This document shows positions 1,191 through 25,905 of a DNA stretch of 64,000 nt, piece after piece (positions within the stretch are counted from its first letter, which is position 1; each line of letters starts with the position of its first letter). The translations under genes and the position numbers were made by a program. The DNA lies in NCBI GenBank assembly GCA_004321915.1, contig SCQE01000019.1:1-64000 (forward strand), read 5' to 3'. Under the pieces are notes generated by a model. It made no database searches, had not been told where the DNA came from, and worked only from the letters and a program-made list of their open reading frames with translations. Source of the stretch: Nitrospirota bacterium. Lineage in GTDB: Bacteria > Nitrospirota > Thermodesulfovibrionia > Thermodesulfovibrionales > Dissulfurispiraceae.

Positions 1191-1217
1191 AACCTTACCC
1201 CCTGATAAATAAAATAT

Positions 1218-1237
1218 CCCCTCCATAAAAAGAGGGG
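1218..1237 (-). other. Small hairpin in the rhodanese 5' leader
   Basis: CCCCTC and GAGGGG are separated by 8 bases, inside the predicted untranslated leader of the rhodanese transcript about 30 bases before its ATG. The stem is only 6 bp. It could stabilise the transcript or tune translation; nothing more can be said. Confidence 0.3.
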
Positions 1238-12330: not shown

Positions 12331-13323
12331 ATGAAGCCCCTCCTCTCGGTGGTCATCCCCAATTACAACGGAAGCGAAACCATAGGCCGGTGTCTCGAAG
12401 CGGTATACGCTTCAGACTTCACAGGCTTTGAAGTTGTCGTGGTGGACGACTGTTCAGGGGACGCTTCGGTCGAAATAATAAGACGCTTCCCCTGCAAACT
12501 GTTCAGACTGGAGAAGCACAGCGGCGCGGCAAGGGCGAGAAATACAGGCGCGGCGAACAGCGGCGGCGGGATCCTCTTCTTTACGGACGCCGACTGCGTC
12601 CCGAAAAAAGACACGCTCAAGATCGCCTTCGAAACAGCGCAAGAAAAAGGGCCGGATGTGGTAGTAGGGGGGACCTATACACGGAACCCCTGCGACGACT
12701 CTTTTTTCAGCGCATTTCAGTCCGTTTTCATAAACCATTTCGAAACGAAGAACGCCGGGAACCCCGATTATATAGCTACGCACGCCATGGCGATACATGC
12801 AGGCACTTTTAATGAAAGCGGAGGCTTCCGGGAAGATTTTCTGCCCATCATCGAAGACGTGGAATTCTCCCACCGCCTGAAAAGAAAGGGGCTCAGGCTT
12901 GTCATAAACCCCGGCCTGCTCGTAGGGCATGTATTTAACTACTCCTTGACCGCGTCCCTGAGAAACGCATACAGAAAGGCGCACTACTGGACCGTTTATT
13001 CCGTTAAGAACAAGGACCTCTTCGCGGATTCAGGCACTGCGTCCCTCGAACTCAAGGCGAATACGGTCTCCTACTTTGCGTCCATTTTCAGCGTGATCCT
13101 TGGGCTGTTCTTCAAAACCCCCGCCTTCCTTTACTTGCCTCTGCTGCTGTTTTTCTGCAATCTGTTCGTGAACAGGAAACTGCTTCTGGCCTTTCTAAAA
13201 ACGGGGGGCATCTTTTTTGCATTGTCTTGCACGGCATACTACACCCTGCTTTATCCTGCGGCAGTAGGCGCCGGGGGCATGGCGGGGTTCATAAAGGCAT
13301 TGCTGAAAAAAGGCGGTGTATGA
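12331..13323 (+). CDS. Family 2 glycosyltransferase with C-terminal membrane helices
   Basis: A 330-residue GT-A fold enzyme. The N-terminus is SVVIPNYNGSETIGRCL, the nucleotide/metal site is VVVDDCSGD and then FFTDADCVP (DxD-like). An acceptor-side ED occurs in LPIIEDVEFSHRLKRKG. The last 90 residues are hydrophobic, with about two or three membrane segments, so it acts at the inner face of the membrane and probably adds a sugar to a lipid-linked or surface acceptor. It is the first GC-rich gene after the defence island. Its stop is followed within a few bases by the radical SAM gene, indicating an operon. The substrate cannot be told. Confidence 0.85.
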   Translation: MKPLLSVVIPNYNGSETIGRCLEAVYASDFTGFEVVVVDDCSGDASVEIIRRFPCKLFRLEKHSGAARARNTGAANSGGGILFFTDADCVPKKDTLKIAFETAQEKGPDVVVGGTYTRNPCDDSFFSAFQSVFINHFETKNAGNPDYIATHAMAIHAGTFNESGGFREDFLPIIEDVEFSHRLKRKGLRLVINPGLLVGHVFNYSLTASLRNAYRKAHYWTVYSVKNKDLFADSGTASLELKANTVSYFASIFSVILGLFFKTPAFLYLPLLLFFCNLFVNRKLLLAFLKTGGIFFALSCTAYYTLLYPAAVGAGGMAGFIKALLKKGGV

Positions 13324-13324
13324 T

Positions 13325-14431
13325 ATGGCTTATTCTCCGTTCAGACACATCGGTTCCATAGCATGGAAGAGGAGGCCGATACAGCTCACCTTTTTTCTGA
13401 CCAAAAGCTGTAATGCCCGCTGTCCCTTCTGCTTTTACCTCTCACGCGGCAGCAATTCAGGGCATGGGCCGGAACTCTCTCCCGATGAGATTGAACGGAT
13501 ATCCGCCTCTATGGGCAGGCTCCTCTGGCTCGCCTTTTCAGGCGGAGAGATCTTTCTGAGAGACGACCTTGCGGACATAGTAAAAACTTTTTACGACCGG
13601 AATAAGCCTTCCATAATACTGCTCACCACAAACGGCTTGCTTACCAATGTTGTGCAGGCAAAAACAGAGGCCATATTAGAATATTGCAAAGAAAGCTCCG
13701 TGGTCTTAAAGCTCTCGCTGGACGGGCCCGAAGAGGTCCATGATTCTTTGAGAGGGACTGCCGGGGCTTTCAGAAAAGCGCTCGAAACATACGCTATGCT
13801 TCGCGGGTTTATCGGCGCATACCCGAATTTCGAACTGGGGATAAATTCGGTTTTCTGCGCTGCGAATCAGGACCGCATGGGCGGGTTCATGGAATTTGTC
13901 AGAGGACTGGATAAGACCATGACCCATACTGTTTCGCTCATACGGGGCAAGGTGCAAAACCCGTTACTGAAGAATGTGGACATGGAGAAATATCTGGAGA
14001 TAGGCAAAAAGCTGGAGGCGGACCTCCATGACGGGTTGACAGGCGTCTATCGTTTCAGGGGAGCGCGTTTAAAAGCCGCGCAGGATATCCTGCAGCGCAG
14101 GCTTATCCATGACACGGCTGTTCAGGCCAAAAGACTGATCCCGTGTTATGCAGGCAGGCTGAACCTCGTGCTGACAGAAACAGGCGATGTTTACCCCTGC
14201 GAAGCCTTCGACCGGAAGCTGGGCAATGTAAGGGAAGCGGGATATGATATAAAAACCATACTAAAGGCAGATAAAACGCTGGCGGCGATTAAGGCAATTG
14301 CAGACAGCGGATGCCACTGCACGCATGAATGCTATTTCATGACGAATATCCTGTTCAACCCCGGGCAATATCCCTCGCTGCTCAAGGAATACCTGCGGCT
14401 GCGCTTCAGCAGCGCCGCTCTTTCCGGCTGA
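13325..14431 (+). CDS. Radical SAM protein with SPASM/twitch-like C-terminus
   Basis: A 368-residue radical SAM enzyme. The cluster motif is CNARCPFC (CX3CX2C), followed by SGGEIFLRDDL for AdoMet binding. The C-terminus has further Cys (PCYAGRLN, VYPCEAFD, GCHCTHECYF) typical of an auxiliary [4Fe-4S] cluster in SPASM/twitch proteins. These often modify peptides or build cofactors or lipids. The ATG at 13325 lies two bases past the stop of the glycosyltransferase; GTG at 13316 is an alternative. The 3' end overlaps by 26 bases with the convergent B12 radical SAM gene. The substrate is unknown. Confidence 0.85.
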   Translation: MAYSPFRHIGSIAWKRRPIQLTFFLTKSCNARCPFCFYLSRGSNSGHGPELSPDEIERISASMGRLLWLAFSGGEIFLRDDLADIVKTFYDRNKPSIILLTTNGLLTNVVQAKTEAILEYCKESSVVLKLSLDGPEEVHDSLRGTAGAFRKALETYAMLRGFIGAYPNFELGINSVFCAANQDRMGGFMEFVRGLDKTMTHTVSLIRGKVQNPLLKNVDMEKYLEIGKKLEADLHDGLTGVYRFRGARLKAAQDILQRRLIHDTAVQAKRLIPCYAGRLNLVLTETGDVYPCEAFDRKLGNVREAGYDIKTILKADKTLAAIKAIADSGCHCTHECYFMTNILFNPGQYPSLLKEYLRLRFSSAALSG

Positions 14432-15848
14432 AAAGGCCTTTTTGGGTCCAGACCCAAAAGAGACTCCTGAGACCGTTGAAGGCCGCAGCTAAGTCATCCG
14501 TTGTCCTGAGCCCGAGCGCCCTCTTTATAAGAAACTCCGGCCTCGAATAAAACCTTTTGAAGGCCGTCCGCCTCAACTCGACTATCTCTTCCCTGTTCAT
14601 CGTGTAGGGCACAAAGGCCGCCCCCTGATAAGTGTAATCGTTGAGGTCTTCGGACAGGGTCCCGTATTTTTCGACGTTATCGTAAAGCTCGCTCCCGGGA
14701 AACGGCGTGAGGCAGTGGAAATTGGCGATGTCCGGGTTTATCTCACACGCGAACTCTATAGTCTCCAAAGCCTCGGCATAGGTCTCGCCGGGGATGCCGA
14801 AGATAAAGGGGGTCAAAACCTTTAACCCGGCTTCCTTGGCATCTCTGACGGCCCTGCGGATTTGCTCGACGGTCGTGCCTTTTTTCAGGGCGTTCAAATT
14901 CTTCTGCACACCGCTCTCGGCCCCGAAGAGGATCGCCCAGCACCCCGCGTCTTTAAAGGCCTTTAAAAGCGGCTTATCCACCTGATTGACGCAGGCCGAG
15001 GCAAACCACGTAAAATCGAACCTCCGCGATTTTATCTCCCTCGCCAGTTGCATCGCCCTGTCATAGTCCGCCGCAAGCGTATCGTCAATAAATTTTATCT
15101 CCCTGTATCCCTGACGCAGGCACAATTCGATCTCCTCCAGCACATTGCCGATGCCCCTGTATCTGATGCCGGACGCCCTGTCTTTATCCATCTGAAAACA
15201 AAAAATACACCTTCTATTGCATCCCCTCGAAGTCATGACTACCGCGACCGGCTTGCGGCGATAGGTTGCCGGGGGGGGGACATACAGGCCGGTCTCGCCG
15301 AGGAGCCCGCGCTCAGGGAAGGGAAGGGAATCAAGGTCTGATACCAAAGACCTAGGGGAGGGGGTCACGATTCCCTTCCCTTCCCTGAATGCCGTTCCTT
15401 CTATGCCGTCGAGCCCAAAATCTCCGGAGAGCCTCGACAATATCTCTACAACCGTTATTTCTCCTTCACCCAAAACAACCGCGTCCATGTCTTCGGCCTC
15501 TCTAAGACACTGCGCCCCCACAGCCGTAGGATAAGGACCGCCCGCGCAGACAAAGACATCTTTCAAAAGGCGTTTTATGTCCGAGGCCGTGCGCACCGCC
15601 TTCCCCCATCCGAAGGCCGTAGAATAAAGACCGGCGAAATCAGGACGGTATTCCTCTATCGCCTTAAGGATTTCCTCGTGCGGCATGAAAGCCCCGTTCA
15701 GGAACCTGACTTCATGCCCGGCCTTCAAGAGCGCCGACGCCACATAAAGCGTGCCGAGCGGCTGCCAGTAATTTATTTGCGAGCCCGCCGTCTTTGCCGG
15801 AAAGATCTCTTCAGGCGACCATGCGGGTATGATAAGGGCGCACTTCAT
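14406..15848 (-). CDS. B12-binding radical SAM protein
   Basis: A 480-residue enzyme. Residues 1-150 form a cobalamin-binding Rossmann-like domain (YWQPLGTLYVASALLKAGHEV, GLYSTAFGWG, CAGGPYPTA, VVLGEGE). The radical SAM core follows with TSRGCNRRCIFC (CX3CX2C) near 210-220 and GAESGVQKNLNALKKGTT. This is the BchE/P-methylase-like class that methylates or cyclises unreactive carbons, often in lipid or polyketide pathways. It overlaps the upstream FAD oxidoreductase gene by 38 bases, so the two are co-translated. A perfect 20-bp inverted repeat interrupts the linker between the two domains. The product is unknown. Confidence 0.88.
   Translation of the reverse strand: MKCALIIPAWSPEEIFPAKTAGSQINYWQPLGTLYVASALLKAGHEVRFLNGAFMPHEEILKAIEEYRPDFAGLYSTAFGWGKAVRTASDIKRLLKDVFVCAGGPYPTAVGAQCLREAEDMDAVVLGEGEITVVEILSRLSGDFGLDGIEGTAFREGKGIVTPSPRSLVSDLDSLPFPERGLLGETGLYVPPPATYRRKPVAVVMTSRGCNRRCIFCFQMDKDRASGIRYRGIGNVLEEIELCLRQGYREIKFIDDTLAADYDRAMQLAREIKSRRFDFTWFASACVNQVDKPLLKAFKDAGCWAILFGAESGVQKNLNALKKGTTVEQIRRAVRDAKEAGLKVLTPFIFGIPGETYAEALETIEFACEINPDIANFHCLTPFPGSELYDNVEKYGTLSEDLNDYTYQGAAFVPYTMNREEIVELRRTAFKRFYSRPEFLIKRALGLRTTDDLAAAFNGLRSLFWVWTQKGLFSRKERRC
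15313..15388. repeat. Perfect 20-bp inverted repeat inside the B12 radical SAM gene
   Basis: The arm TCAGGGAAGGGAAGGGAATC at 15313-15332 is matched exactly by its reverse complement at 15369-15388, with a 36-base spacer. It lies in coding sequence (minus strand) in the linker, encoding AFREGKGIV on one side and DSLPFPER on the other. The LPFP motif is common in this family, so that arm is probably the original. Confidence 0.8.
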
Positions 15849-17244
15849 CTGGCTCGCTCCGGAGTTTTATTTTTTCGGCGGGCTTCCCTAAAATCGCTTC
15901 GGCCGCCTCGATCCCGGATTCCATCGCCCGGTCCATATTGAGGTAACTGAACCTCCCGTTCCTCCCGGCCGTGTGAAGGTTTCCGAACCTGTCGAGATAA
16001 TCCATAATGATCTTCAGTCTGTCCTTGAAATACACGTCAAAGACCGGATACGCGTTAGGGACCCTGAGCACGCAGGCATCAAAAACCTCGCAGGCCTTTA
16101 TAAACCCGAGCTTCTCCATATGCCGGACAGTGAGGTTTATGAGGGCTTCGTCCCCCGCCCCGCTGATGCCGTCGCCGCGGGAACAAAAGTATTCGGCCAC
16201 CACGTGGGTCTTGTCCTCCGGCGACATGAACGGACTCCAGTTCTTGGGTTCGTGTATCCTGCCGAAGGGTATGTCTTTCTCCGGAAGATACATCCATGTC
16301 AGATCGGTCAGAGATTTTCTGTCGAGCATGAGCGCGACTATCACGAGGTCTCTGAACCTGAGCTGGGAGGCGGCCTCTAAAACTTCATACGGCGGTCTTG
16401 GATAGAGCCGCTTTACAAGGCTTGTAACAGGAATGCTGGAGATATACTCCCTGCCCTGCAAATCCATTTCAACGCCTTGTCTGCAAACAGCAATATGTTT
16501 TATGTTGAAATTTTCATGCCGGATCCTCACAACTTCAGAGCCGGTCAATATTGTATTATCTTTCTCTATTTCATCCTTCAGTCGTTCGGAGAGACGGCCT
16601 ATACCCTGCGCAGGATAATAAAACCTGTCCGTCAACGTCCTTATCTTCCCGTTTTTTAATTTAAACAGGGAATTCTTCACCGCCTTCCAGAGAGAGAGCC
16701 CGTCTATCCTGCTTGCCGCCCACTCGCCGCTTATCTCCTTGCAGCCCATCCCCCACACCTTCTCGCTGTACTGCTTGAAATAAAGCTCGAACATCTCCCT
16801 ACCGAACCGGTTTACCGTCCAGTCCTCCAGAGAAACAATATCCGGACTGCCGAACAAACCGGCGGCCTGCTCCCGGCAGTAATCGAAGATTATTTTCGCG
16901 GTCTTAGAGGGTCCGAGACCGAAGACCGCGTTCGCAGGGTTCGGCGGATAGTCGAAAAATTTCCCCAGCATATATATCCTGCTCTTTCTCGGCACTATGA
17001 GCAGTTCGTCCCGCAGCAGATCCTTTACCAGCGACTCGATTGCCGGGTTGTCGGTCATGAAACGGTGGCCGCCGAGATCGAACCTGAAGCCGCGATGGGT
17101 CGCGGTCTTTGCAAGACCACCTACTTCGCAATCCCTCTCGATCAGGACAACCCGCCTGTCCGCCTTCGAGAGCGTATAAGCTGCCGAAAGCCCGGAAAGC
17201 CCTCCCCCCAAAACAACTGCGTCCGCACCCCTGCTGCGTATCAT
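15811..17244 (-). CDS. FAD-dependent oxidoreductase of the amine oxidase / UDP-galactopyranose mutase-like group
   Basis: A 477-residue flavoprotein. The FAD dinucleotide motif is AVVLGGGLSGLSAAYTLSKA (GxGxxG, residues 9-28), then LIERDCEVGG. A typical segment is NRFGREMFELYFKQYSEKVWG. The C-terminal FAD loop is NLHTAGRNGRFSYLNMDRAM. This combination occurs in protoporphyrinogen-oxidase-like and UDP-galactopyranose-mutase-like proteins of sugar and lipid clusters. Beside a glycosyltransferase and two radical SAM enzymes, a role in a glycan or lipid pathway is likely, but the reaction is unknown. Its 3' end overlaps the B12 radical SAM gene; the Usp gene ends 32 bases upstream of its start. 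Confidence 0.82.
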   Translation of the reverse strand: MIRSRGADAVVLGGGLSGLSAAYTLSKADRRVVLIERDCEVGGLAKTATHRGFRFDLGGHRFMTDNPAIESLVKDLLRDELLIVPRKSRIYMLGKFFDYPPNPANAVFGLGPSKTAKIIFDYCREQAAGLFGSPDIVSLEDWTVNRFGREMFELYFKQYSEKVWGMGCKEISGEWAASRIDGLSLWKAVKNSLFKLKNGKIRTLTDRFYYPAQGIGRLSERLKDEIEKDNTILTGSEVVRIRHENFNIKHIAVCRQGVEMDLQGREYISSIPVTSLVKRLYPRPPYEVLEAASQLRFRDLVIVALMLDRKSLTDLTWMYLPEKDIPFGRIHEPKNWSPFMSPEDKTHVVAEYFCSRGDGISGAGDEALINLTVRHMEKLGFIKACEVFDACVLRVPNAYPVFDVYFKDRLKIIMDYLDRFGNLHTAGRNGRFSYLNMDRAMESGIEAAEAILGKPAEKIKLRSEPDEVRPYHTRMVA

Positions 17245-17276
17245 CCGTCACGTGAGATATGAAACGGCGCTTTGGA

Positions 17277-17738
17277 TCATCGCGCAATCAGCACCGGTAT
17301 TCGGGCGCATTGGGACACCTCCCTGCTCACGCTGCCTATCAGCAGGGAATGCACTCTCTTGCCGCGGGACCCGATAATAATCATGTCGGCGGCCTGCTCC
17401 ACCGTCTCTTTGAGTATCTCGTCCGCCGGGTGACCCTCCCGGACCGCAGTTTGTATTCCAAGCACGCCCAATTCTTCCAGCTTCTTCGAGTAATGCGCCA
17501 GTATCGCCTTCGCCTTCCTGTCGAGCTGTTCCTGATATTCCGTATCGCGGAGCTCTTCTTTCAAGGTGGAGAGTTCGGCGTCCCCCAGCATTTCGGTCAT
17601 CACGGACTTGCCTTCTATCTTTTCGACGTAAAGCAAAATCACCGTCTCCGGACGGGCGCAAAAAAACAGATCGGCGAACGTCTTGATAACGGCCTCGGTG
17701 CCTTTGCCTTCGTCAACCGCGAGTATAACTTTTTTCAT
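17277..17738 (-). CDS. Universal stress protein (UspA family)
   Basis: A 153-residue single Usp domain. It starts KKVILAVDEGKGTEAVIK and ends with the ATP-binding signature IIGSRGKRVHSLLIGSVSREV (G-2x-G-9x-G-S), so it probably binds ATP. The ATG at 17738 has GGGAG 6 bases upstream; the ATG two codons earlier has no room for a site. It is the last gene of the sulfur transporter operon (YeeE, TusA, two small membrane proteins, Usp). The target is unknown. Confidence 0.9.
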   Translation of the reverse strand: MKKVILAVDEGKGTEAVIKTFADLFFCARPETVILLYVEKIEGKSVMTEMLGDAELSTLKEELRDTEYQEQLDRKAKAILAHYSKKLEELGVLGIQTAVREGHPADEILKETVEQAADMIIIGSRGKRVHSLLIGSVSREVSQCARIPVLIAR

Positions 17739-17805
17739 TTCCATCTCCCGTCTTGAACCCGCAAAACAATCCCGGCTTCATATTTCATTCAGGGACAAGC
17801 CCTGT

Positions 17806-18012
17806 TTACTCGTCCTTATACAGCTCTTTGTAATAGTCCTGCGTCTTCTTGTCTATTCCTTCCACGGTATCGCCCCCGCTGCCGTATCCGCCCGCTTCGG
17901 CCGCTTCGAAATATCCGGGCTGCACGCCGGTCGAATACGAAAGCTTGTACCCCCCGATGAAACCGAGACCCCACACAATAACGCAAATCAAAAGCCATAT
18001 CCCCGTTTTCAT
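17806..18012 (-). CDS. Small single-helix membrane protein, DYYKEL tail (paralogue 2)
   Basis: A 68-residue protein with one N-terminal membrane helix (IWLLICVIVWGLGFIGGY), a Gly-rich middle and the charged tail KKTQDYYKELYKDE. It is related to the product of the adjacent gene, which ends KGTKDYYKDLLKEE. Its ATG overlaps the stop of that gene by one base (TAATG) and has AAGGAGGAG upstream, so translation is coupled. I do not know the family. In an operon with a thiosulfate-type transporter and TusA, it could be an accessory subunit on the membrane. Confidence 0.8.
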   Translation of the reverse strand: MKTGIWLLICVIVWGLGFIGGYKLSYSTGVQPGYFEAAEAGGYGSGGDTVEGIDKKTQDYYKELYKDE

Positions 18013-18197
18013 TACTCCTCCTTCAGCAGGTCCTTGTAATAATCCTTCGTCCCCTTGTCCAATTCCGCGCCGGCCTTCACTTTATTGGGTCCGCCGCCGA
18101 TCATGCCCGCCTCTATGAAAGAGGGCGTGCTGTAGCCCATGAGGAAACCCAAGAAACAGACCACCACCGCTATGATAATCCAGAGATTCTTCTTCAT
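18012..18197 (-). CDS. Small single-helix membrane protein, DYYKDL tail (paralogue 1)
   Basis: A 61-residue protein starting MKKNLWIIIAVVVCFLGFLM: one membrane helix with a Cys, a short Ser/Gly-rich part and the tail KGTKDYYKDLLKEE. GGGGGAAG lies 3-4 bases before the ATG at 18197. It sits between tusA and its paralogue in the same operon. The shared pattern G-Y-S in the helix and D-Y-Y-K-[DE]-L near the C-terminus suggests a tandem duplication. Function unknown. Confidence 0.8.
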   Translation of the reverse strand: MKKNLWIIIAVVVCFLGFLMGYSTPSFIEAGMIGGGPNKVKAGAELDKGTKDYYKDLLKEE

Positions 18198-18232
18198 ATC
18201 TTCCCCCTTTTTATGTTGAAAAGCGTCATCCG

Positions 18233-18484
18233 CTATCCTTTCTTGATCCTCCAGATATATTTCCCGCTCTCGTTCTTCTTCTCGATTATCTCGTCGCCTG
18301 TCGTGTCGCACATCGCGGCGACCGATTCCGACGAAGACGGATTGTCGAATATCAATTCGAGCACGTCCCCGTTCTTCATTTTTTCGAGCGCCTTCTTCGT
18401 GTAGATCTGCGGGTGCGGACATACGTACCCCTGAACGTCCAGCATGAATGTCCCCTCTTCCTTTTTTTCGAATTTCATCGCCAT
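18233..18484 (-). CDS. TusA-family sulfur carrier
   Basis: An 83-residue TusA/SirA-like protein. The sulfur-carrying Cys lies in VQGYVCPHPQIYTKKAL (CPxP motif). The family carries persulfide sulfur between donors and acceptors. The ATG at 18484 has GGGAGGTG four bases upstream. It follows the YeeE-type transporter by 47 bases, the same pairing as TsuA-TsuB (YeeE-YeeD), where the TusA-like partner accepts sulfur from imported thiosulfate. Cytoplasmic sulfur hand-over from the transporter is the likely role. Confidence 0.9.
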   Translation of the reverse strand: MAMKFEKKEEGTFMLDVQGYVCPHPQIYTKKALEKMKNGDVLELIFDNPSSSESVAAMCDTTGDEIIEKKNESGKYIWRIKKG

Positions 18485-18531
18485 TTCACACCTCCCGAAT
18501 TTATGTAAAATAAATTTAACGCCCGATGCCT

Positions 18532-19962
18532 CTAAAAATTGAACGAGGCCATTTCTTTTGCCATTTTCCGCTCGGTCCACCAGTTAAAGAACCTGACCCC
18601 TATAAAAGCGCCCCCTATCATGCCGATGCCGAACAGCCACCCGGAGGTGTCGCCCATGGCCACCCTTACAAAGAAGGCACCGACATTGCAGCCCAGCCCG
18701 AGTCTCGAACCGATGCCCATCAAGGCCCCACCGATAAGCGCCCATGTGGCCAGTTCCAAAGTCGGCTTCTTGAACTTGAATTCGTTATGCAAAAGCGCCA
18801 TTACGGCTGCGCCTCCGATAAGCGCAAGGGACATCCAGTCCGCAGGGTTAAGCGCCGGGTTCGGTATGCCGTTATTGAGCCCGAAATATATGTTGTCCAT
18901 ATTGTCCCAGCCGAGCTTGTTGAATACCCAGCCCACCCATTGGGCTTCCTGTGTCGTGACATACCAGTATCCGGGGTCGAAGACCGTCCCCTTGACCGAC
19001 AGTCCGAAATCCGAGCCCATTTTCGACAGGAGCGCGCCGGCGTTCTTGATTCCGAATTTTATCCGCAGGCCTTCTATAACGAACATCTGCAGGCCGCAGG
19101 CAATGCCTAAGAACAGGCCTGCAAGCGCGGTCCTTTTGGACGCGGTTATCATGCCCCAGTAGCCTGACAGTTCCTCTTTGAAACTCGCCGTTCCAACCCC
19201 TTGCTTTTTCAGTTTGTTCAGATAGCTTTTTCTCGCCCAGATCAGATACACGAGAAGGAGCAGCACCGTGGCGGGCAAAACTACGCCGACCAGAAAGTCG
19301 CCGACAAAGGCGCCGGGGACGGAAGTATCAGACCACCCCATCATCTTCGAGAATTTTACTACAGGCCTGTCCCAGACATAACCTGCAAGATACTGGTCCA
19401 CCCAGCCGTCGCCCGCGTTTATGCTCTCGGGGAGTTTTTTTGCGAGTGCGGATTGGTGCCATGATTCGGGCACCAGCTTGTTGAACCAGCCGCCGATGTC
19501 CACGAATATCGCCTGAGTCACGCTGATGGAGAGTATGACCGTCAAGGCGACTCCGTTTCCCTCTCCGGTTTTATAGAGAGAGCCCGATGCGCAGCCTCCC
19601 GCGAAGACCATCCCTATGCCGAAAATAAGCCCTGCCACGGTTGCGTGGAGGCCGGTCGGCGCGGCATGAAAGGTGCTCATGCCCGTCACCGATACGAAGG
19701 CCGAGACAAAGCTGAAGAGGATAGTGGCTATCATTATTCCCACCACCATGCGCGGCACGCCTACGGCGAAAAGGTCCCTGAACGCGGACGCGAAACAGAA
19801 GCGTCCATACTGCAGGCACATGCCGTAGATAAAGCCGAACCAGAGATACGCCGAAAGATAGATGTAAAACTCGTTATAGGCGTACGTCGCTACGCTTACC
19901 AGCACGAAGAAACCGGTAATAATAAAGGCCCAGAGCTGATTTTTTCTCGATTCGTTTTCCAC
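18532..19962 (-). CDS. YeeE/YedE (TsuA)-type sulfur-compound transporter
   Basis: A 476-residue multi-helix membrane protein. The three conserved Cys of the thiosulfate transporter family are present in YGRFCFASAF, FAGGCASGSLYKTGEG and LGLGCNVGAFF. It is longer than bacterial TsuA because of a roughly 100-residue insertion between the two halves (about 150-260). The GTG start at 19962 has GGGGGTAAT in front. It is the first gene of a five-gene operon with TusA. A strong sigma-54 promoter (20041-20055) and dyads lie upstream. Import of thiosulfate or a similar compound is the family-based expectation. Confidence 0.88.
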   Translation of the reverse strand: MENESRKNQLWAFIITGFFVLVSVATYAYNEFYIYLSAYLWFGFIYGMCLQYGRFCFASAFRDLFAVGVPRMVVGIMIATILFSFVSAFVSVTGMSTFHAAPTGLHATVAGLIFGIGMVFAGGCASGSLYKTGEGNGVALTVILSISVTQAIFVDIGGWFNKLVPESWHQSALAKKLPESINAGDGWVDQYLAGYVWDRPVVKFSKMMGWSDTSVPGAFVGDFLVGVVLPATVLLLLVYLIWARKSYLNKLKKQGVGTASFKEELSGYWGMITASKRTALAGLFLGIACGLQMFVIEGLRIKFGIKNAGALLSKMGSDFGLSVKGTVFDPGYWYVTTQEAQWVGWVFNKLGWDNMDNIYFGLNNGIPNPALNPADWMSLALIGGAAVMALLHNEFKFKKPTLELATWALIGGALMGIGSRLGLGCNVGAFFVRVAMGDTSGWLFGIGMIGGAFIGVRFFNWWTERKMAKEMASFNF

Positions 19963-20040
19963 CTGATTACCCCCGGATTTTTTTATTAAATAAAACGTCT
20001 TTCAAGCCTTTTCTCCCTGCTTGAGTGCCATATCAAAAAA

Positions 20041-20055
20041 GCAAGAACTGTGCCA
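20041..20055 (-). promoter_or_regulatory. Sigma-54 promoter for the YeeE-TusA operon
   Basis: The minus strand reads TGGCAC-AGTTC-TTGC followed by T, an exact match to the -24 and -12 consensus with the right spacing. It lies about 80 bases before the GTG of the transporter gene. The dyads at 20086-20125 are 40-65 bp upstream, the usual place for an enhancer-binding protein. Confidence 0.88.
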
Positions 20056-20085
20056 TTAAAAACCGCCTTGAATGGAGCGTTCGGG

Positions 20086-20125
20086 TATGGTTTTTGGGAC
20101 ATAAGCTGTCCCAAAAGGGACAGCT
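20086..20125. promoter_or_regulatory. Activator dyad(s) TGTCC-N6-GGACA (locus B)
   Basis: A perfect palindrome AGCTGTCCC-AAAA-GGGACAGCT spans 20104-20125 and contains TGTCC-CAAAAG-GGACA. A second site with one good arm (TATGG-TTTTTG-GGACA) starts 21 bp away, two helical turns. The same dyad type occurs at 1352 and 22767, each time upstream of a sigma-54 promoter. Confidence 0.7.
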
Positions 20126-20134
20126 ACAAGAAAA

Positions 20135-21844
20135 TTACTGGACTTTTCCGGACAGACAGCCTTCGCTGAAGATGGTCACAAAGGTCTTGTATCGAAAAAC
20201 CCCGGAAGACTTTAAAAACACTGCCGCAGGTCCGGTCTTCAGGCCGCGAGACGCTGCGTAATCCCGCATTTCCGGCGAAGCGGCCGCGGCGGCCGCTTCG
20301 CCGGAAATGACAACGAGCGGCAGGCCTGCGTCCTTGTCCGTCCCCGAATAAAAGTCCGGCATTTTCAGCTCCCATGTGAATCGCAAGGAAGACTTCTCTA
20401 TCCCGTCTTTTGCGGGAAGCCCCGGCTTTGCGCCGCGGTACACGAGCCTTTTGGAGGTAAACAAATCGAGGACCGGGACTGCGGCCTCTGTGTTTCCATC
20501 GGACACGGGCTGGGGCAAGGCGTAAACCTCGACCGATTCACAGGGAAGGCTGTCGAGATATACCCCGGCATCTTTAAGGTTTGCGGCGCTCATCCCGTCC
20601 AAAAAAGGCAGATATGCACAAAACAGGATTACAAGCGAAGAGGCCGCCGCGCTGTAAGCTATAAAGCGCGCCAACCTCCCGTCCTTGACCACGCAAAGCC
20701 CGTAGGAGGCCATAAGCGTAAACAACGGCAGCATGGGAAGGACATAGCGGACCCTGTTCATACGGAATACAACGACGAGCAGCACGAACCAAGCCGCGAC
20801 GAGAAAACGCCTGTCTTTATTTTTAAACGCCGCAAACGCGCCGAACAATGAAAGGGCTGTGACAAAAGGATGCGTCTGGAAGAGAAAAGTAGAAATATAG
20901 CCTTCCTGCCAGCGCAGCAATCCCGGCCACTGGTAAGCCTTGAGCATGTCGAGCTGTTCGAAAAGGACGTCCAGTTTCGCTAAAAAAAACATACCGCACA
21001 AGACCGCCGTCAGTCCTGCGATAACAGCGGTGCGGCCGGCGACCTCTCTTGTCCTCCCCCGCAGGGAGACACAAGATATCACGGCCAGAACAGAGAGCAT
21101 CGGCCATGTGGAATACTTACTAAAGGTTGTAAGAAACACGGCTGCTGAAGCGGTCCCCGGCCACACGAGCCCGCCCTTTTCGATCGCCTTTGTAAAAGTG
21201 TATATCGAGAGCGTGAGGAAAAACATCGCGGGAATGTCCACAAGCATCAAGGGGACCTGTGTCGGGAGATAGGGTATAGCCGTAAGCAGCAGTCCCGCAT
21301 AAAATCCCTGCCTTTCTCCATAGAGCGCTTTGCCCGTAAGATAGGTCAACACTATGGTCGCAGAAAAAAGAAGGGCATTGAAGAGCTGGATATACGTCCT
21401 CGTTTCTCCGAAAAATTTAAAGATAAGCCCGTAGAGAAACGGCACAACCGGCATGTCGGTCCATGCGCCTATCGTTTTGCCCCACTCCCTGACGAAATAT
21501 TCCACCCCGTATAATTCGAGGTATTTTGCCTGCACAAAATATCTCGAAGCGTCGGGGATGACCTCCGGCTCCGCGCGGAGGGGAAGGGCAACGAGAAACG
21601 ACAGGCCTAAAAGGAAAATCAGGGGACGCCTTTCCGGCAAAGAGGCCTTCGAGAAAAAATAAGAAAGCAGAACGCCGAGCGCTGTCAGCGCGTAAATTTT
21701 CCCGACGCCCGCGCCCGCGAACACCCATCTCCAGCTCGTGAGCGCATTGCCGTCGAGGGCGCGCAGGATATAAAGAAGGGGCGCCGCCAGCAAGGCGGGA
21801 AACGCGACCGCAAAATACTGCCCGGCGCCGTCCCGGTTGATCAC
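20135..21844 (-). CDS. GT39-like membrane glycosyltransferase (ArnT/PMT superfamily)
   Basis: A 569-residue protein with about 11 membrane helices and a C-terminal soluble part. An acidic loop between the first helices (EPEVIPDASRYFVQAKYL) and the YFVREWG segment fit GT-C enzymes that use polyprenyl-phosphate sugars outside the membrane. The GTG start at 21844 has TAAGGG upstream. The gene follows the DsrE-like trio by 12 bases, so it may belong to that transcript though its function looks unrelated. The C-terminus contains a run of six Ala encoded by a perfect 43-bp palindrome. Confidence 0.8.
   Translation of the reverse strand: MINRDGAGQYFAVAFPALLAAPLLYILRALDGNALTSWRWVFAGAGVGKIYALTALGVLLSYFFSKASLPERRPLIFLLGLSFLVALPLRAEPEVIPDASRYFVQAKYLELYGVEYFVREWGKTIGAWTDMPVVPFLYGLIFKFFGETRTYIQLFNALLFSATIVLTYLTGKALYGERQGFYAGLLLTAIPYLPTQVPLMLVDIPAMFFLTLSIYTFTKAIEKGGLVWPGTASAAVFLTTFSKYSTWPMLSVLAVISCVSLRGRTREVAGRTAVIAGLTAVLCGMFFLAKLDVLFEQLDMLKAYQWPGLLRWQEGYISTFLFQTHPFVTALSLFGAFAAFKNKDRRFLVAAWFVLLVVVFRMNRVRYVLPMLPLFTLMASYGLCVVKDGRLARFIAYSAAASSLVILFCAYLPFLDGMSAANLKDAGVYLDSLPCESVEVYALPQPVSDGNTEAAVPVLDLFTSKRLVYRGAKPGLPAKDGIEKSSLRFTWELKMPDFYSGTDKDAGLPLVVISGEAAAAAASPEMRDYAASRGLKTGPAAVFLKSSGVFRYKTFVTIFSEGCLSGKVQ
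20267..20309. repeat. Perfect 43-bp palindrome (21-bp arms, 1-base centre)
   Basis: The arms run 20267-20287 and 20289-20309 around a single central G at 20288. They begin CATTTCCGGCG and end CGCCGGAAATG, and the middle holds two GCGGCCGC octamers. In the minus-strand gene it encodes ISGEAAAAAASPEM. Such a long perfect palindrome in coding DNA can extrude as a hairpin and is usually unstable. Confidence 0.9.
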
Positions 21845-21856
21845 GCCGGATTACCC

Positions 21857-22159
21857 TTAGAGCACGAGCACCCTGTCCGAATCGTGGACCATCGCGGCAT
21901 TGTTGAACTGGCTGCCGCAAACTATCGCAGCCGGGATGTCTTCTTTTTTCACCTTATGCTCGCCGGCGCTGTGGTCGCAATAGCTCATGCGGACGCCTTT
22001 GAGCATCGACAAACCTGTGAACTGTCTGAGTTCCAGCAGCCTTGTCCCGCTGTCCATAGCAAAGATATCCACCTCATGCCCTTTTGCGAGGGCGATCACC
22101 GTGAGTTTTTCAATATCCTCCGGATGCCTGTCTGTATTGACCAAAATACCGAGTTTCAT
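21857..22159 (-). CDS. DsrE/F-like small protein (locus C, third gene)
   Basis: A 100-residue protein starting MKLGILVNTDRHPEDIEKLT, with the alpha/beta pattern of DsrE-like sulfur-relay proteins (VIALAKGHEVDIFAMDSGTRLL, SYCDHSAGEH, AIVCGSQFNNAAM). Cys occur in SYCDHS and VCGSQ, and the first lies where DsrE-type proteins often carry sulfur. GGAGGGG lies upstream of the ATG at 22159. It is the third of three small genes behind one sigma-54 promoter. Binding or transfer of sulfane sulfur is inferred. Confidence 0.75.
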   Translation of the reverse strand: MKLGILVNTDRHPEDIEKLTVIALAKGHEVDIFAMDSGTRLLELRQFTGLSMLKGVRMSYCDHSAGEHKVKKEDIPAAIVCGSQFNNAAMVHDSDRVLVL

Positions 22160-22176
22160 CTTCTTCCCCTCCTCCC

Positions 22177-22344
22177 CTACCAGCAGATCACCCTGTCGCC
22201 GGTCATTACAAGGTCTATGATGCGGTCGTACTCTTTGCACTCCCTTAAGTCTATCACGCTGACCTCGTTGTTCTCCCTGTGGCCGTCCATAAGCTCCTTA
22301 AGCGTCCCTTCGACGTCCTGCTTTAAAATATACACGATCTTCAC
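22177..22344 (-). CDS. Short DsrH/TusB-like protein (55 residues)
   Basis: A 55-residue reading frame with GTG start at 22344 and GGAGGAG five bases upstream. It starts MKIVYILKQDVEGTLKELMD and ends RIIDLVMTGDRVICW. DsrH/TusB proteins end in a hydrophobic Asp-containing strand and a terminal Trp, and this one does too, with a Cys just before it. It is only about 60 percent of the usual length. Its position between two DsrE-like genes copies the DsrE-F-H / TusD-C-B arrangement. The assignment is tentative; the coding call is supported by the ribosome-binding site and tight spacing (17 and 27 bases to the neighbours). Confidence 0.65.
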   Translation of the reverse strand: MKIVYILKQDVEGTLKELMDGHRENNEVSVIDLRECKEYDRIIDLVMTGDRVICW

Positions 22345-22371
22345 GCCGACTCCTCCTTCCGGTGTAAACTT

Positions 22372-22644
22372 TCAGTACGCCAGTATGTGACTGTAACCGA
22401 GCAGCCTCGCGGCTATCTCTTTATTGTCGAGATACTCCATGTCATGGTTCTCCCTCTTGTTTGTGTAAACCTTCATCTCCATGTCGCAGGCGGTCTCGAG
22501 ATTCAGGACGTTTTTTTCGTTTTTCTCGATCTTGCGGTCCAAAACATAGATATCGATGACATCGTCCATAAGGGTTATGCCCACGGCCATCCTGAGCGCC
22601 TCCTCCTGCCGCTCCCTCACGAGAACCGCTATTTTTTTCGTCAT
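22372..22644 (-). CDS. DsrE-like small protein (locus C, first gene)
   Basis: A 90-residue protein starting MTKKIAVLVRERQEEALRMA and ending AARLLGYSHILAY. The alternating strands and helices (GITLMDDVIDIYVLD, LETACDMEMKVYTN) fit the DsrE fold of sulfur-relay and peroxiredoxin-like proteins. The one Cys (ETACDME) lies in the central region where the persulfide Cys is found in several DsrE proteins. AAGGAGGAACGG precedes the ATG. It is the first gene behind the sigma-54 promoter at 22688-22702. Confidence 0.75.
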   Translation of the reverse strand: MTKKIAVLVRERQEEALRMAVGITLMDDVIDIYVLDRKIEKNEKNVLNLETACDMEMKVYTNKRENHDMEYLDNKEIAARLLGYSHILAY

Positions 22645-22687
22645 CCGTTCCTCCTTGCAAAGAAATCACTGCCTGCCCTGTTCTTAT

Positions 22688-22702
22688 GCAAGGGCAATGC
22701 CA
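22688..22702 (-). promoter_or_regulatory. Sigma-54 promoter for the DsrE-DsrH-DsrE operon
   Basis: The minus strand reads TTGGCATTGCCCTTGCAT. GG and GC are separated by 10 bases, -24 is TGGCAT and -12 is TTGCA. It lies 44 bases before the first gene of locus C. The dyad at 22767-22782 is about 75 bp upstream. Confidence 0.78.
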
Positions 22703-22766
22703 ACCAACAGTTTTCCTGCGATTCCGGCATATCACGGCCTGCAACCGCAGACAAAGCGCCTCCTTT

Positions 22767-22782
22767 TGTGCCGTTAGGGACA
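22767..22782. promoter_or_regulatory. Activator dyad TGTGC-N6-GGACA (locus C)
   Basis: A 16-bp site with one mismatch to TGTCC-N6-GGACA, between the DsrE-like operon and the divergent histidine kinase gene. It could serve both promoters. Confidence 0.5.
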
Positions 22783-22840
22783 ATGCGCCGTTGATTTGAA
22801 ATCTCAAATTTGGAGGAGGGGCCGTCCCCACGGCAATAAT

Positions 22841-22869
22841 TTCATTAACGGCGGGGTTTGGTATATAAT
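22841..22869 (+). promoter_or_regulatory. Sigma-70-type promoter of the kinase gene
   Basis: TTCATT, 17 bases, TATAAT. The -10 is perfect and the -35 weak. The -10 overlaps an ATG at 22868 that would otherwise be the start of the kinase, so a transcript from here would begin near 22876 and the ATG at 22916 would be used. Confidence 0.5.
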
Positions 22870-22915
22870 GAAAATCGGGGGGTCAGTCTTAGATCATACG
22901 GACTGCCCGGAGACA

Positions 22916-24574
22916 ATGGACTGGATAACATATCATATCGGGGAAGACTTCCTGATCGCCCTTATCTGTTTCGGCATAACCGCAAGGGTATTGCGGAAAG
23001 CCAAAACAGACCTTTCACTCGACCGCGAAAAAAGGAGCAGGCTTTTTATCTTCGGCTCCGGTTTTGCGATCTTAGGTCTGAGCAGTTTCATACATGCCTC
23101 GATCCACACCTTCGACCTGAATACGAACATCCTGTACCAAACGCTTCTCGGCTATTGCTTCGGCCTCCTGATGCTGATAGCGGCCGTCACCTTGGAAAAG
23201 CCGTGGAACAAAAAGACGCTGCCGCTCCTTTACCTCCCGCTTGTATTGATGCTTTCCCCGTACGTATATGAGCAATTCCCTATCTTCAACCAGTTCAGGC
23301 CGCTCGTATGGCTCATAGTCTCATACCTGTCCGGGCTTATCTGCATGCTGTATCTGGCGACTTTCTATTACACCAAAAATGCGCGGTTCGTCCTTTCTTC
23401 GATCGGCCATCTCTTTATATGCATCGCGTCCATAATACTTTTTTTCCCCGCCTCCATAGGCGCGGACCCATGGACCTTCGGACACCTCATTAGGCCTTTG
23501 GGCTTTGTCATTTTGTTCTTCAGCGTCACGAGCAGGGAGCTCGGCGAGCTCAGGAGCAGCGTCCTTTACAGGGCGCTTACCGCTTTCAGCCTGCTCGCCT
23601 CGATACCGCTTCTCGTCTCGGGCGTAGTAATGCTGTATGAAAACCTCAACCCGGGCTACGTTATAAAAAAAGAGCCTATGGTCTTCGCGCTCCTGTTGAT
23701 CACCTTGGCCTCGGCCCTCATCTTCGGACTCGGCATGACCATACGGCTGATACGCCCGCTCCTCCGGCTCAAAGACTCCGTGATAAAACTTGCGGACGAA
23801 GGTTTCAACAAAAAGATAGCAGTGGACAGCACCGATGAGATAGGGGAGCTTTCCAATGCCTTCAACGACATGACCGTCAAATTGCGCAGCGCCCTCGATG
23901 AACAGGACCGGTTGAGCAGGCTGGCGGCCACAGGGGAACTCGCCGCGACCCTTGCCCACGAGATCAAAAACCCGCTGAATGCGATAAGCGGAGCGGCGGT
24001 CTATCTCGAAGAGAACTTCAAGGGCGGCCTCATACAGGAATTCGTAAAGATAATCAATAGTGAGGCGCAGCGGATAAACAAACTTACGATGAGCCTTCTG
24101 AATTTTGCCGCACCCGTAAAACCTGCTCTTGCGCCGTCTGACATCAACAGTCTGGTCCGCGAAACCCGCCTGCTTCTCGAACAGGAGTCTAAGGACCGCG
24201 GCGTAATTATTGAAGCTGAGCTTGACGCGAAAGCTCCTCTAATAGACTTCGATTACGATCAGATAAAGCAGGTGCTGATCAACTTCATAGTAAATGCAAT
24301 GGATGCGGCGGCCGCAAACGGTCTTGTTAAAATCAAGACGCGCATATCGAACGGGGGCCTGCTGCTGTCGGTCGAAGACAACGGCCGGGGCATTAAGGAG
24401 GAGGACCTGAAAAACATATTCAATCCCTTTTTCACGACCAAGACGCGGGGTGTCGGGCTGGGGCTTGCCGTGTCGAGGAAAATAGCAAAGGAGCACAGCG
24501 GCGATATACTTGCGGAGAGCATTCCGGGAAAGGGCTGCCGTTTCACGCTTATGCTGCCGGTGAAGAGAAAATGA
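22916..24574 (+). CDS. Membrane histidine kinase (HAMP-HisKA-HATPase)
   Basis: A 552-residue sensor. About seven hydrophobic segments fill residues 5-225, followed by a short extracytoplasmic loop (LYENLNPGYVIKKEP) and another helix. A HAMP domain follows (PLLRLKDSVIKLADEGFNKKI, about 275-325). The phospho-acceptor His is at about 348 in TLAHEIKNPLNA. The HATPase has the N box NFIVNAMDAA, G1 VEDNGRGI and G2 GVGLGLAVSRKIAKEH. I start at ATG 22916 (GGAG close upstream) because the -10 element covers the ATG at 22868. It overlaps the response-regulator gene by 4 bases. The many-helix sensor suggests a membrane-borne or small-molecule signal; a sulfur signal is inferred from neighbouring target genes. 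Confidence 0.9.
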   Translation: MDWITYHIGEDFLIALICFGITARVLRKAKTDLSLDREKRSRLFIFGSGFAILGLSSFIHASIHTFDLNTNILYQTLLGYCFGLLMLIAAVTLEKPWNKKTLPLLYLPLVLMLSPYVYEQFPIFNQFRPLVWLIVSYLSGLICMLYLATFYYTKNARFVLSSIGHLFICIASIILFFPASIGADPWTFGHLIRPLGFVILFFSVTSRELGELRSSVLYRALTAFSLLASIPLLVSGVVMLYENLNPGYVIKKEPMVFALLLITLASALIFGLGMTIRLIRPLLRLKDSVIKLADEGFNKKIAVDSTDEIGELSNAFNDMTVKLRSALDEQDRLSRLAATGELAATLAHEIKNPLNAISGAAVYLEENFKGGLIQEFVKIINSEAQRINKLTMSLLNFAAPVKPALAPSDINSLVRETRLLLEQESKDRGVIIEAELDAKAPLIDFDYDQIKQVLINFIVNAMDAAAANGLVKIKTRISNGGLLLSVEDNGRGIKEEDLKNIFNPFFTTKTRGVGLGLAVSRKIAKEHSGDILAESIPGKGCRFTLMLPVKRK

Positions 24575-25905
24575 AGTCCTCGATACTTATAATAGACGAC
24601 GAACTCAATTCCCTGAAGGTGCTGTCCCTCGCGCTCAAGAAAGAGGGGTTCAGCGTAGAGGCGTGCAGCACCGGCGAGGAAGCGCTGGCAAAGCTCGACA
24701 AAGATGTTTTCGACCTTGTTATATCGGACTACAAGCTCCCGGGCATCAACGGCGAAGTCATCCTCGAAAGGGTCAAAGAAAAGACCCCTTCAGTGCCATT
24801 TATCCTGCTTACCGCATACGGCAGCATCGAACGCGCGGTGAACGCGATGAAAAAAGGGGCATATACTTATCTGACCAAACCGGTGCATCTAAGCCTGCTG
24901 TCTTCTGTAGCAAGGGAGGCTTTAGGCGAAAGGATAAAAGACTATGTCGGCGATCCCTGCAGATACCAGTTCCTGAATATTGTCGGCAAGTCCAAGCCCA
25001 TGCAGGACGTATTCTCCATGATACAGCGCGTCAGCAAAACCGACGCGGGCGTGCTCATCTTAGGAGAGACCGGCACAGGCAAGGAACTCGCTGCGAGGGC
25101 GATCCACTACAGCTCCATGCGGGCCAACAGCGCCTTCATCCCCATCGACTGCACCACCATCCCCAAAGACCTCATGGAAAGCGAACTCTTCGGCCATGAA
25201 AAGGGTGCCTTCACCTGCGCCTATGCAAGCAAGACCGGCCTTCTCGAAATGGCGAATGAAGGCACGGTCTTCTTCGATGAGATCGGGGACCTCGATTTCA
25301 CCCTGCAGAAAAAACTCCTCAGGTTTCTTCAGGAAAAAGAGTTCTATAAAATAGGCGGCAAACAGAAGATCAAGGTGGACGTGCGCGTGATCGCCGCAAC
25401 GAACAGGAACATAGAGAAGGCCGTAGAACAAGGGGAATTCAGGGCCGACCTTTATTACAGGTTCAATGTCATAACCATCAATATGCCGCCGCTCAGGGAG
25501 AGAAGCGACGACATCCCTTTGATAGCAGCGCACTTCCTCGAGTTCTTCACGAAGAAGTACAAGAAAGATATAACAGGTTTTGAGCCTGCCGCCATGGACG
25601 CCCTGAAGCATTACGACTGGCCGGGCAATGTCCGCGAGCTCGAAAATGTCATCGAGAGGGCGACGATATTGTGCCCGTCGGGACAGATCAATATTTCATG
25701 CCTGCCGTATAAGCTGAAACCGCTGCTGCCGGAAGAAAATTATTCGCTCGAAGACGGACTGAATCTCGCGGAGATGGAAAAACGGGTTGTACTGAAAGCC
25801 CTCGAAGCATCCTCGTGGAACCAGTCGAAATCAGCTCTGCTGCTCGGGATCACCCGCAAACAGCTGAGGACAAAGATGAAGAACTTAGGTCTGCTTCCGG
25901 GTTAG
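24571..25905 (+). CDS. NtrC-type sigma-54 activator with GAFTCA loop
   Basis: A 444-residue response regulator. The receiver domain (1-120) has phospho-acceptor Asp53 in VISDYKLPG and Lys103. The AAA+ domain has Walker A GETGTGKE (166-173), a sigma-54 contact loop GAFTCA (212-217) in place of GAFTGA, Walker B TVFFDEIGDL and ESELFGHEKG. The C-terminus is a Fis-type helix-turn-helix (NQSKSALLLGITRKQLRTKMKNLG). It overlaps the kinase by 4 bases (ATGA), so the pair is a two-component system. It is the only enhancer-binding protein in the window and lies beside one of three sigma-54 promoters with shared dyads, which makes it the best candidate for their activator. The Gly-to-Cys change at residue 216 is unusual. 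Confidence 0.93.
   Translation: MKSSILIIDDELNSLKVLSLALKKEGFSVEACSTGEEALAKLDKDVFDLVISDYKLPGINGEVILERVKEKTPSVPFILLTAYGSIERAVNAMKKGAYTYLTKPVHLSLLSSVAREALGERIKDYVGDPCRYQFLNIVGKSKPMQDVFSMIQRVSKTDAGVLILGETGTGKELAARAIHYSSMRANSAFIPIDCTTIPKDLMESELFGHEKGAFTCAYASKTGLLEMANEGTVFFDEIGDLDFTLQKKLLRFLQEKEFYKIGGKQKIKVDVRVIAATNRNIEKAVEQGEFRADLYYRFNVITINMPPLRERSDDIPLIAAHFLEFFTKKYKKDITGFEPAAMDALKHYDWPGNVRELENVIERATILCPSGQINISCLPYKLKPLLPEENYSLEDGLNLAEMEKRVVLKALEASSWNQSKSALLLGITRKQLRTKMKNLGLLPG

Follow-up and report, generated by a model that had tools for sequence, protein, structure and literature searches.

Single-helix proteins encoded behind a YeeE-type sulfur transporter of Nitrospirota: possible membrane anchors for a periplasmic sulfur donor

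Introduction

Thiosulfate transporters of the YeeE/TsuA type, together with their partner YeeD/TsuB, have been described in S. thermophila and E. coli (6leo, 8j4c and 8k1r). These transporters belong to PF04143, contain three conserved cysteines and have an adjacent TusA-family partner with a CPxP motif. The three conserved cysteines are presented as a feature of the YeeE/TsuA family in section 6 of PMC11582611, and in PMC11073785 the three-cysteine relay of the thiosulfate transporter ends at the TusA-family partner. The same paper gives the YeeE-YeeD complex as 1:1, and the words 'subunit' and 'accessory' are absent from its main text.

A second described system is the YTD cluster, or yeeE-tusA-dsrEFH type II, of dissimilatory sulfur metabolism. 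According to three papers, the published set consists of five genes, yedE, tusA, dsrE, chp2 and chp1, of which the last three are predicted to be DsrEFH-like (PMC9751629, PMC13293266, PMC13047784), and up to three chp genes are counted in a fourth (PMC12998232). YeeE-TusA clusters are among the leading candidates for bringing sulfane sulfur across the inner membrane, a step that is still debated for sulfate reducers, sulfur disproportionators and sulfur oxidisers (PMC12998232, PMC13293266). Two-domain periplasmic rhodaneses (PF00581) are also relevant here; these are normally free proteins with an export signal. In addition, some membrane complexes contain single-helix subunits of fewer than 70 residues, such as KdpF and CydX, which are encoded in the operon of the complex.

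In this work, two small genes, sm1 and sm2, located behind a YeeE-type transporter gene and tusA in a Nitrospirota bacterium (contig SCQE01000019.1, assembly GCA_004321915.1) are compared with these systems. The whole stretch of 64,000 nucleotides that was analyzed is referred to as the window. A preliminary description of the window had presented the two genes as tandem paralogs encoding membrane proteins without a named family, which may be subunits or regulators of the transporter.

The transporter and its gene cluster

The transporter gene of the window (18,532 to 19,962, minus strand; protein P0004) has a GTG start and encodes a YeeE/YedE-type sulfur transporter of 476 residues, matching PF04143 (Sulf_transp) with 123.5 bits against a cut-off of 27. 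Cys56, Cys124 and Cys425 are invariant in alignments of 14 and of 23 sequences. All five Foldseek hits of the transporter model (pLDDT 73) with E < 0.001 are YeeE entries, and 6leo, 6lep, 8k1r and 8j4c are the closest solved structures, by sequence as well as by fold. Unlike the described YeeE/TsuA proteins, for which 330 to 350 residues are given in section 6 of PMC11582611, the transporter of the window is longer and has small anchors encoded behind it, and it also misses the NCBIfam TsuA/YeeE cut-offs (95 bits against 400, and 65.8 against 645). It is regarded as related to, and not identical with, the named thiosulfate transporter. A TusA-family sulfurtransferase with a CPHP motif is encoded next (18,233 to 18,484, minus strand; PF01206, E 7.5e-20).

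Of the 395 genomes of the phylum, 82 had a match to the transporter (E 1e-60 or better), and dsrA is present in 75 of these 82 genomes compared to 100 of the 313 others (odds ratio 22.8, uncorrected for kinship). In the window, dsrA is located at 39,173 to 40,324. Another YeeE-type gene of the same genome (L001, G000:C39:91612-92583) has two in-frame TGA codons, in GRYU and GGUTVG, both at positions where conserved cysteines are expected as judged by eye. It is possible that this gene encodes a selenoprotein with two Sec residues; YeeE/YedE selenoproteins are listed in PMC13188914. In L046, L050, L056 and L059, the flagged inner TGA is the second-to-last match position and most likely an ordinary stop.

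Positions 12,331 to 25,905 of the window form a cluster that is conserved across phyla, in which DsrE, YeeE and TusA occur with PMT, GT2, FAD/UGM-like, HpnJ-like B12-radical SAM and radical SAM/SPASM proteins. The numbers of loci given here for each neighbor cover those in which enough flank was read, with near relatives retained. Upstream of yeeE, on the minus strand, lie genes for a PMT_2-type membrane glycosyltransferase (20,135 to 21,844; PF13231; 100 of 120 loci), a DsrE-family protein (21,857 to 22,159; PF02635, E 9.6e-6; 47 of 63 loci) and, beside DsrE, two conserved proteins of 55 residues (22,177 to 22,344; 49 of 63 loci) and 90 residues (22,372 to 22,644; 46 of 63 loci), which have no Pfam hit and are candidate DsrF/H-like proteins. 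On the other side of the small genes, a universal stress protein (17,277 to 17,744; PF00582; 88 of 123 loci), a FAD amine-oxidase/UGM-like protein (15,811 to 17,244; NF005548; 50 of 71 loci) and a B12-binding radical SAM protein of the HpnJ/BchE-like type (14,406 to 15,848; 52 of 61 loci) are encoded on the minus strand, and a radical SAM/SPASM protein (13,316 to 14,431; 35 of 80 named loci, these being the best 80 of 305) and a neighboring GT2 glycosyltransferase (12,331 to 13,323) on the plus strand.

With the YTD cluster, the window shares dissimilatory sulfur metabolism and the joint presence of a YedE-type transporter, TusA and DsrE (PF04143, PF01206, PF02635) with two further small conserved genes. 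The order yedE-tusA-dsrE-chp2-chp1 was not found in the window; unlike in the YTD cluster, PMT and yeeE are preceded by the dsrE group, and tusA is followed by genes for membrane anchors. The possibility that sm1 and sm2 are chp1 and chp2 was rejected, since the latter are predicted to be DsrEFH-like in the papers cited above. The comparison covers chp1 and chp2, and sm1 and sm2 may be related to chp3.

Two tandem small membrane proteins

The genes sm1 (18,012 to 18,197) and sm2 (17,806 to 18,012) are located on the minus strand and encode proteins of 61 and 68 residues, in agreement with the preliminary description, and the position right after tusA and the coupling in TAATG given there can likewise be read in the window. 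Sm1 starts 35 nt past the tusA stop, and the two genes overlap by one base (TAA of sm1, ATG of sm2). Both have plausible ribosome-binding sites, that of sm2, GAAGGAGGAG, lying within sm1. Sm1 consists of one membrane helix, a G-Y-S exit and the C-terminal tail DYYKDLLKEE. In Sm2, a predicted membrane helix (residues 3 to 27) is followed by a disordered Gly/Tyr linker with PGYFEAAEAGGYG and by a predicted C-terminal helix (residues 55 to 66), with the tail DYYKELYKDE. The AlphaFold2 model of Sm2 (mean pLDDT 69) places the YY motif on this second helix, for which the confidence is only modest. The signature that had been proposed as common to both proteins is retained for the D-Y-Y-K tail; G-Y-S after the helix is confined to Sm1, with G-Y-K-L-S in Sm2.

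The two proteins are homologous (BLASTP, 38% identity, E 9e-14), and their family profiles align with E 4.5e-19 over 61 columns (hhalign, probability 99.1), which bears out the proposed paralogy. Eleven gene pairs were compared for each gene, and those not saturated in dS gave dN/dS values of 0.05-0.14 for sm1 (seven pairs, one of which, with few changes, gave 0.62) and 0-0.36 for sm2 (eight pairs). Because related sequences occupy the same place across phyla and because of these dN/dS values, sm1 and sm2 are considered to be real genes; spurious open reading frames and chance similarity are excluded on the same grounds. Also the statement that no named family exists holds, as Pfam and NCBIfam contained no matching family for 20 Sm2 and 21 Sm1 members. 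At E 0.1, the Sm2 profile had no match among PDB chains, and no description of the family was recognised in a literature search of open-licence PMC papers.

In being shorter than 70 residues, having one helix and being encoded in an operon, Sm1 and Sm2 are similar to KdpF and CydX. Unlike these, the Sm family has a conserved tail and a natural fusion to an enzyme, and we know of no sequence relation to either protein.

A wider family of anchors

Judged by sequence, the sm1-sm2 pair represents one version within a larger family, whose members have one helix and a Gly/Tyr linker and which includes single proteins with GGYG repeats. Downstream of the transporter of relatives, either the pair is found or a single protein in which the same helix is followed by GGYG repeats. 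A scan of named genomes gave 305 transporter relatives; the best 80 of these, which were retained, are from Nitrospirota, Alpha-, Beta- and Gammaproteobacteria, Desulfobulbaceae and relatives, and Rokubacteria, with taxa as labelled in the records. An oddity of one phylum was rejected on this basis, as at least four phyla are represented as labelled, in records that are all draft or metagenome-derived as far as the labels show.

After removal of duplicates, 129 loci comprised 71 with the pair, 50 with a single protein, three with rhodanese fusions, two with two-helix variants and three cut by a contig end, the fused and two-helix loci being labelled manually on inspection. The 13 further loci of the phylum comprised nine with a single protein, two without a small gene (L211 and L212) and two that were not assessable. 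Before counting, 18 wide-flank repeats (L078-L095) and 23 duplicates were excluded, as were L019, L036, L126, L214 and L215 as not assessable; L213 is partly masked, with the anchor helix still visible.

The GGYG profile aligns with those of Sm2 (1.2e-15 over 33 columns) and Sm1 (8.1e-15 over 30 columns), both matches resting on the helix region, where composition can help. The anchor region is common to all three forms, and the tails differ. Among 13 GGYG members, two unrelated Pfam models were matched by one member each and NCBIfam by none. In the pair form, PG[YF]F is present in 70 of 71 Sm2 proteins, and a YYxxL-like end in 70 of 71 Sm2 and 66 of 70 Sm1 proteins. At locus L216, the GGYG protein is followed, about 0.8 kb past the transporter, by another protein with one helix, which contains a long GDYGDS repeat. 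On the transporter tree, rooted at the midpoint only, the pair form requires two changes and fits one gain and one loss. Under this root, single forms are found on both sides of the deepest split, and the single form may therefore be older.

Linkage to the transporter

A small gene is present just downstream of the transporter in all 126 assessable unique loci, including that of the window, and in 135 of 137 after the remaining loci of the phylum were added. The two loci without a small gene have the most divergent transporters (about 47% identity). In the two genomes concerned, G174 and G319, this transporter and tusA are present without any small gene, and the GGYG profile found nothing in either genome.

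Copies at other places were searched for with the Sm2 profile, which had matches in 36 of the 395 genomes of the phylum. Twenty-five of the 26 strong matches (E 2.2e-20 or better) adjoin the transporter, and the remaining one (G096:C179) is located at a contig edge in a genome whose transporter runs off another contig. Among the 28 weaker matches, G317:C25 and G399:C114 have no operon, and all others fall on transporter loci or on the G096 edge; in G297:C25, tusA and the last residues of the transporter are located at a contig edge. In the 20 named genomes, all 33 matches fall within known loci. In the proteobacterial class of G404, 10 of 321 genomes had matches. Nine of these, three of them in genomes known beforehand, are strong and without exception located next to tusA and the transporter; the weak tenth, G591, has no operon. 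With the contig-edge case of G096 aside, no confident unlinked copy was found with the Sm2 profile in these 395, 20 and 321 genomes, with at most 15 to 18 initial candidates scored in some genomes, so that weakly similar copies could escape. The proposed link to the transporter is thereby extended beyond what could be seen in the window, and homologs unlinked to sulfur transport, which had been named as the observation that would speak against it, did not appear in these searches.

Small genes directly follow YeeE, with no intervening tusA, in L135 and, at the second YeeE copy, in L155, L160 and L049. Each YeeE copy has a small gene in the last three loci. In L155 and L160, which contain tandem YeeE genes, the first YeeE gene is accompanied by its own tusA, a gene of the GGYG type and a rhodanese gene and the second by the sm1-sm2 pair, so that the single and pair forms are found side by side. 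In L049, the tandem YeeE genes have between them tusA, a GGYG gene (apparently frameshifted in the repeats), a stress protein gene and a gene for a lipoprotein-like rhodanese. Because small genes follow YeeE without tusA in these four loci, YeeE and not TusA is taken to be the partner. Small genes are also kept in 18 of 20 loci without a detected PMT. In L081 and L082, neither PMT, FAD, GT2 nor the two radical SAM genes were found within about 7.5-8 kb on either side. As the small genes persist locally without PMT, FAD or tusA, YeeE is the constant local partner, and the partnership of the small proteins with YeeE may be considered well supported.

Rhodanese fusions and the location of the tail

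Three loci had at first seemed to lack a small gene. In these loci (G013, G291 and G305), an anchor, a short GYGG linker and a rhodanese are combined in one protein. Two rhodanese stretches (PF00581) are detected by Pfam in the fusions of G013 and G291, and that of G305 is cut at a contig end after 128 residues. The anchors of the fusions are recognised by the GGYG profile (E 3.5e-7 to 4.8e-7), and on the transporter tree the three loci fall into a single clade (99*), indicating one origin. The fused domain is homologous to the two-domain periplasmic rhodaneses, which differ in being free rather than attached via an anchor.

Free rhodaneses of the kind found in the fusions are encoded in 21 of the 80 named loci; for the group-B loci the number is 22 of 40, and for the wider loci 12 of 18. 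Among the 51 loci in which 4.5 kb or more was read to each side, 15 have a rhodanese. In the genome of the window, rhodanese matches occur at about seven places in 3.6 Mb, and the frequency of free rhodaneses near the transporter looks well above chance. Most of 18 free-rhodanese N-termini are Sec-signal-like as judged by eye, and a C-Q-T-G-[ST]-R site is present in 15 of the 18. The window itself encodes a two-domain rhodanese (171 to 1,226, minus strand; two PF00581 stretches on 291-1,199) about 17 kb from sm2, which has an apparent export signal by eye and is a candidate periplasmic donor.

Since the rhodanese joined to anchor and linker in the three fusions has free relatives with, in most cases, an export signal, these data point strongly to a tail that is probably located in the periplasm. 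In addition, the N-termini of the small proteins have a net charge of +0.5 to +0.7 and the tails of Sm1 and Sm2 of about -6; this charge-based topology argument applies to the pair form only, as GGYG tails are neutral on average (of 48, 17 are negative and 20 positive). In line with this topology, the natural two-helix variant of L053 returns to an end rich in lysines and arginines. No cysteine is present in the tails of 71 of 71 Sm1, 70 of 71 Sm2 and 48 of 48 GGYG proteins; the tails are therefore unlikely to carry sulfur and appear tether-like. Sulfur carriers were thus disfavoured as a function of the small proteins.

Promoter and regulators

A sigma-54-type (-24/-12) promoter match, TGGCACAGTTCTTGCT, is located at 20,040 to 20,055 on the minus strand, 77 nt before the start codon of yeeE, and is the only site without mismatches in the window. 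In a pattern search of the window, a second site with one mismatch was found before the dsrE group (22,687 to 22,702, minus strand). In the window as a whole, such sites with up to two mismatches are not enriched (20 found against 28 expected). Among relatives, a site with zero or one mismatch is present in the 250 nt before yeeE in 32 of 124 loci. The opposite strand gave such a site in 0 of 124 loci, and shuffling of single bases gave one in 4 of 2480 cases. All 32 loci are of the pair type; at this threshold, no site is present in the remaining 92, among which are all single-type loci tested. Where the site is present, this supports yeeE-tusA-sm1-sm2 as a putative transcription unit separate from PMT. 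Beside the cluster, a divergent histidine kinase with an uncertain start (22,796 to 24,574) and a divergent NtrC-type sigma-54 response regulator (24,571 to 25,905; PF00158, E 1.1e-68) are encoded on the plus strand.

Proposed role and alternative explanations

Sm1 and Sm2 could be dedicated YeeE-bound anchors that help to dock a periplasmic sulfur donor for transfer via the YeeE cysteines to TusA, a reading that we favour but put forward tentatively, as a serious possibility that falls somewhat short of probable. Each anchor would insert against YeeE such that the N-terminus lies inside and the tail in the periplasm, and the flexible Gly/Tyr linker would reach outward. The linker would end in a short helix in the pair form, in a run of GGYG repeats in the single form or in a covalently attached rhodanese in the fused form. 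In this way, the anchors would keep the sulfur donor, which is probably a rhodanese, at the outer opening of YeeE, and sulfane sulfur or thiosulfate would pass down the three cysteines of YeeE to TusA and into cytoplasmic sulfur metabolism. The data show co-location, kinship within the family, conservation and fused proteins, and we infer that the anchors would bind YeeE and, with moderate strength, that they would dock a donor. The case for docking comes from a single small fusion clade and from the gene neighborhood; with a rhodanese in 15 of 51 loci, and about 17 kb from the pair in the window, docking may not be general. A more far-reaching proposal, which is possible but doubtful, is that YeeE, TusA and the anchors form a transmembrane handover machine. 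Protein-bound sulfane sulfur, and not free thiosulfate, would then be passed cysteine-to-cysteine across the membrane, from the docked, sulfur-loaded rhodanese to TusA and DsrE-type proteins, with the fused, docked-helix and GGYG tails as three tethering solutions.

The size, the single helix and the near-perfect operon linkage of the small proteins would also suit plain structural micro-subunits, which pack on YeeE and stabilise or gate it, as KdpF and CydX do in their complexes, with passive tails and without docking of a donor. The common anchor region with differing tails is in line with this; however, each form of the tail is conserved (PG[YF]F, the YYxxL-like end, the GGYG repeats) and a sulfurtransferase is fused to it in three loci, and this explanation seems rather unlikely. 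In a further explanation, the small proteins would be substrates of the neighboring enzymes (B12-radical SAM, radical SAM/SPASM, FAD and GT2/PMT), as an anchored Gly/Tyr peptide that is cross-linked or glycosylated before working. Repeated Gly/Tyr motifs resemble those of some modified peptides, and the synteny of the enzyme genes extends across phyla. With 60% identity or more to the protein of the window, a B12-radical SAM protein is encoded in 10 of 10 tested genomes with a small gene: six of six with a locus lacking the enzyme module, where the gene is on another contig (several cases) or at a second locus (61-71% identity), and four more (61-69%). Of the genomes without a small gene, G174 has no match and G319 only a relative of 30% identity. 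The anchors may therefore be modified by this enzyme, although the test, with 12 genomes, is small and follows lineage, and the two genomes without a small gene are also the most divergent. An argument against modification is that the radical SAM/SPASM protein, which is present in four of the six genomes with a module-less locus, had no match at E 1e-40 in the other two, G183 and G385, both of which carry the pair. Also, of the 71 loci with 3.5 kb or more of downstream sequence, 21 lack a detected FAD gene and all 21 keep the small gene, and no leader/core layout was seen. Such a substrate role is considered improbable.

A function in signaling, in which the small proteins would detect sulfur in the periplasm or relay the activity of YeeE to the histidine kinase and the NtrC-type regulator, is suggested by the position of these two genes next to the cluster of the window and by the sigma-54-type site before yeeE. 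However, among loci with at least 4.9 kb upstream, the kinase is present in 10 of 39 and the regulator in 9 of 39, against near-universal small genes, and the small proteins have no conserved cysteine; a signaling role is considered very improbable. Between the two functions offered in the preliminary description, that of a subunit is favoured over that of a regulator.

Conclusions

The anchors mark this branch of the YeeE transporters. A near-invariant component that is present in none of the searched family libraries would be a missing part of the sulfane-sulfur route, and the rhodanese fusions suggest the identity of the donor.
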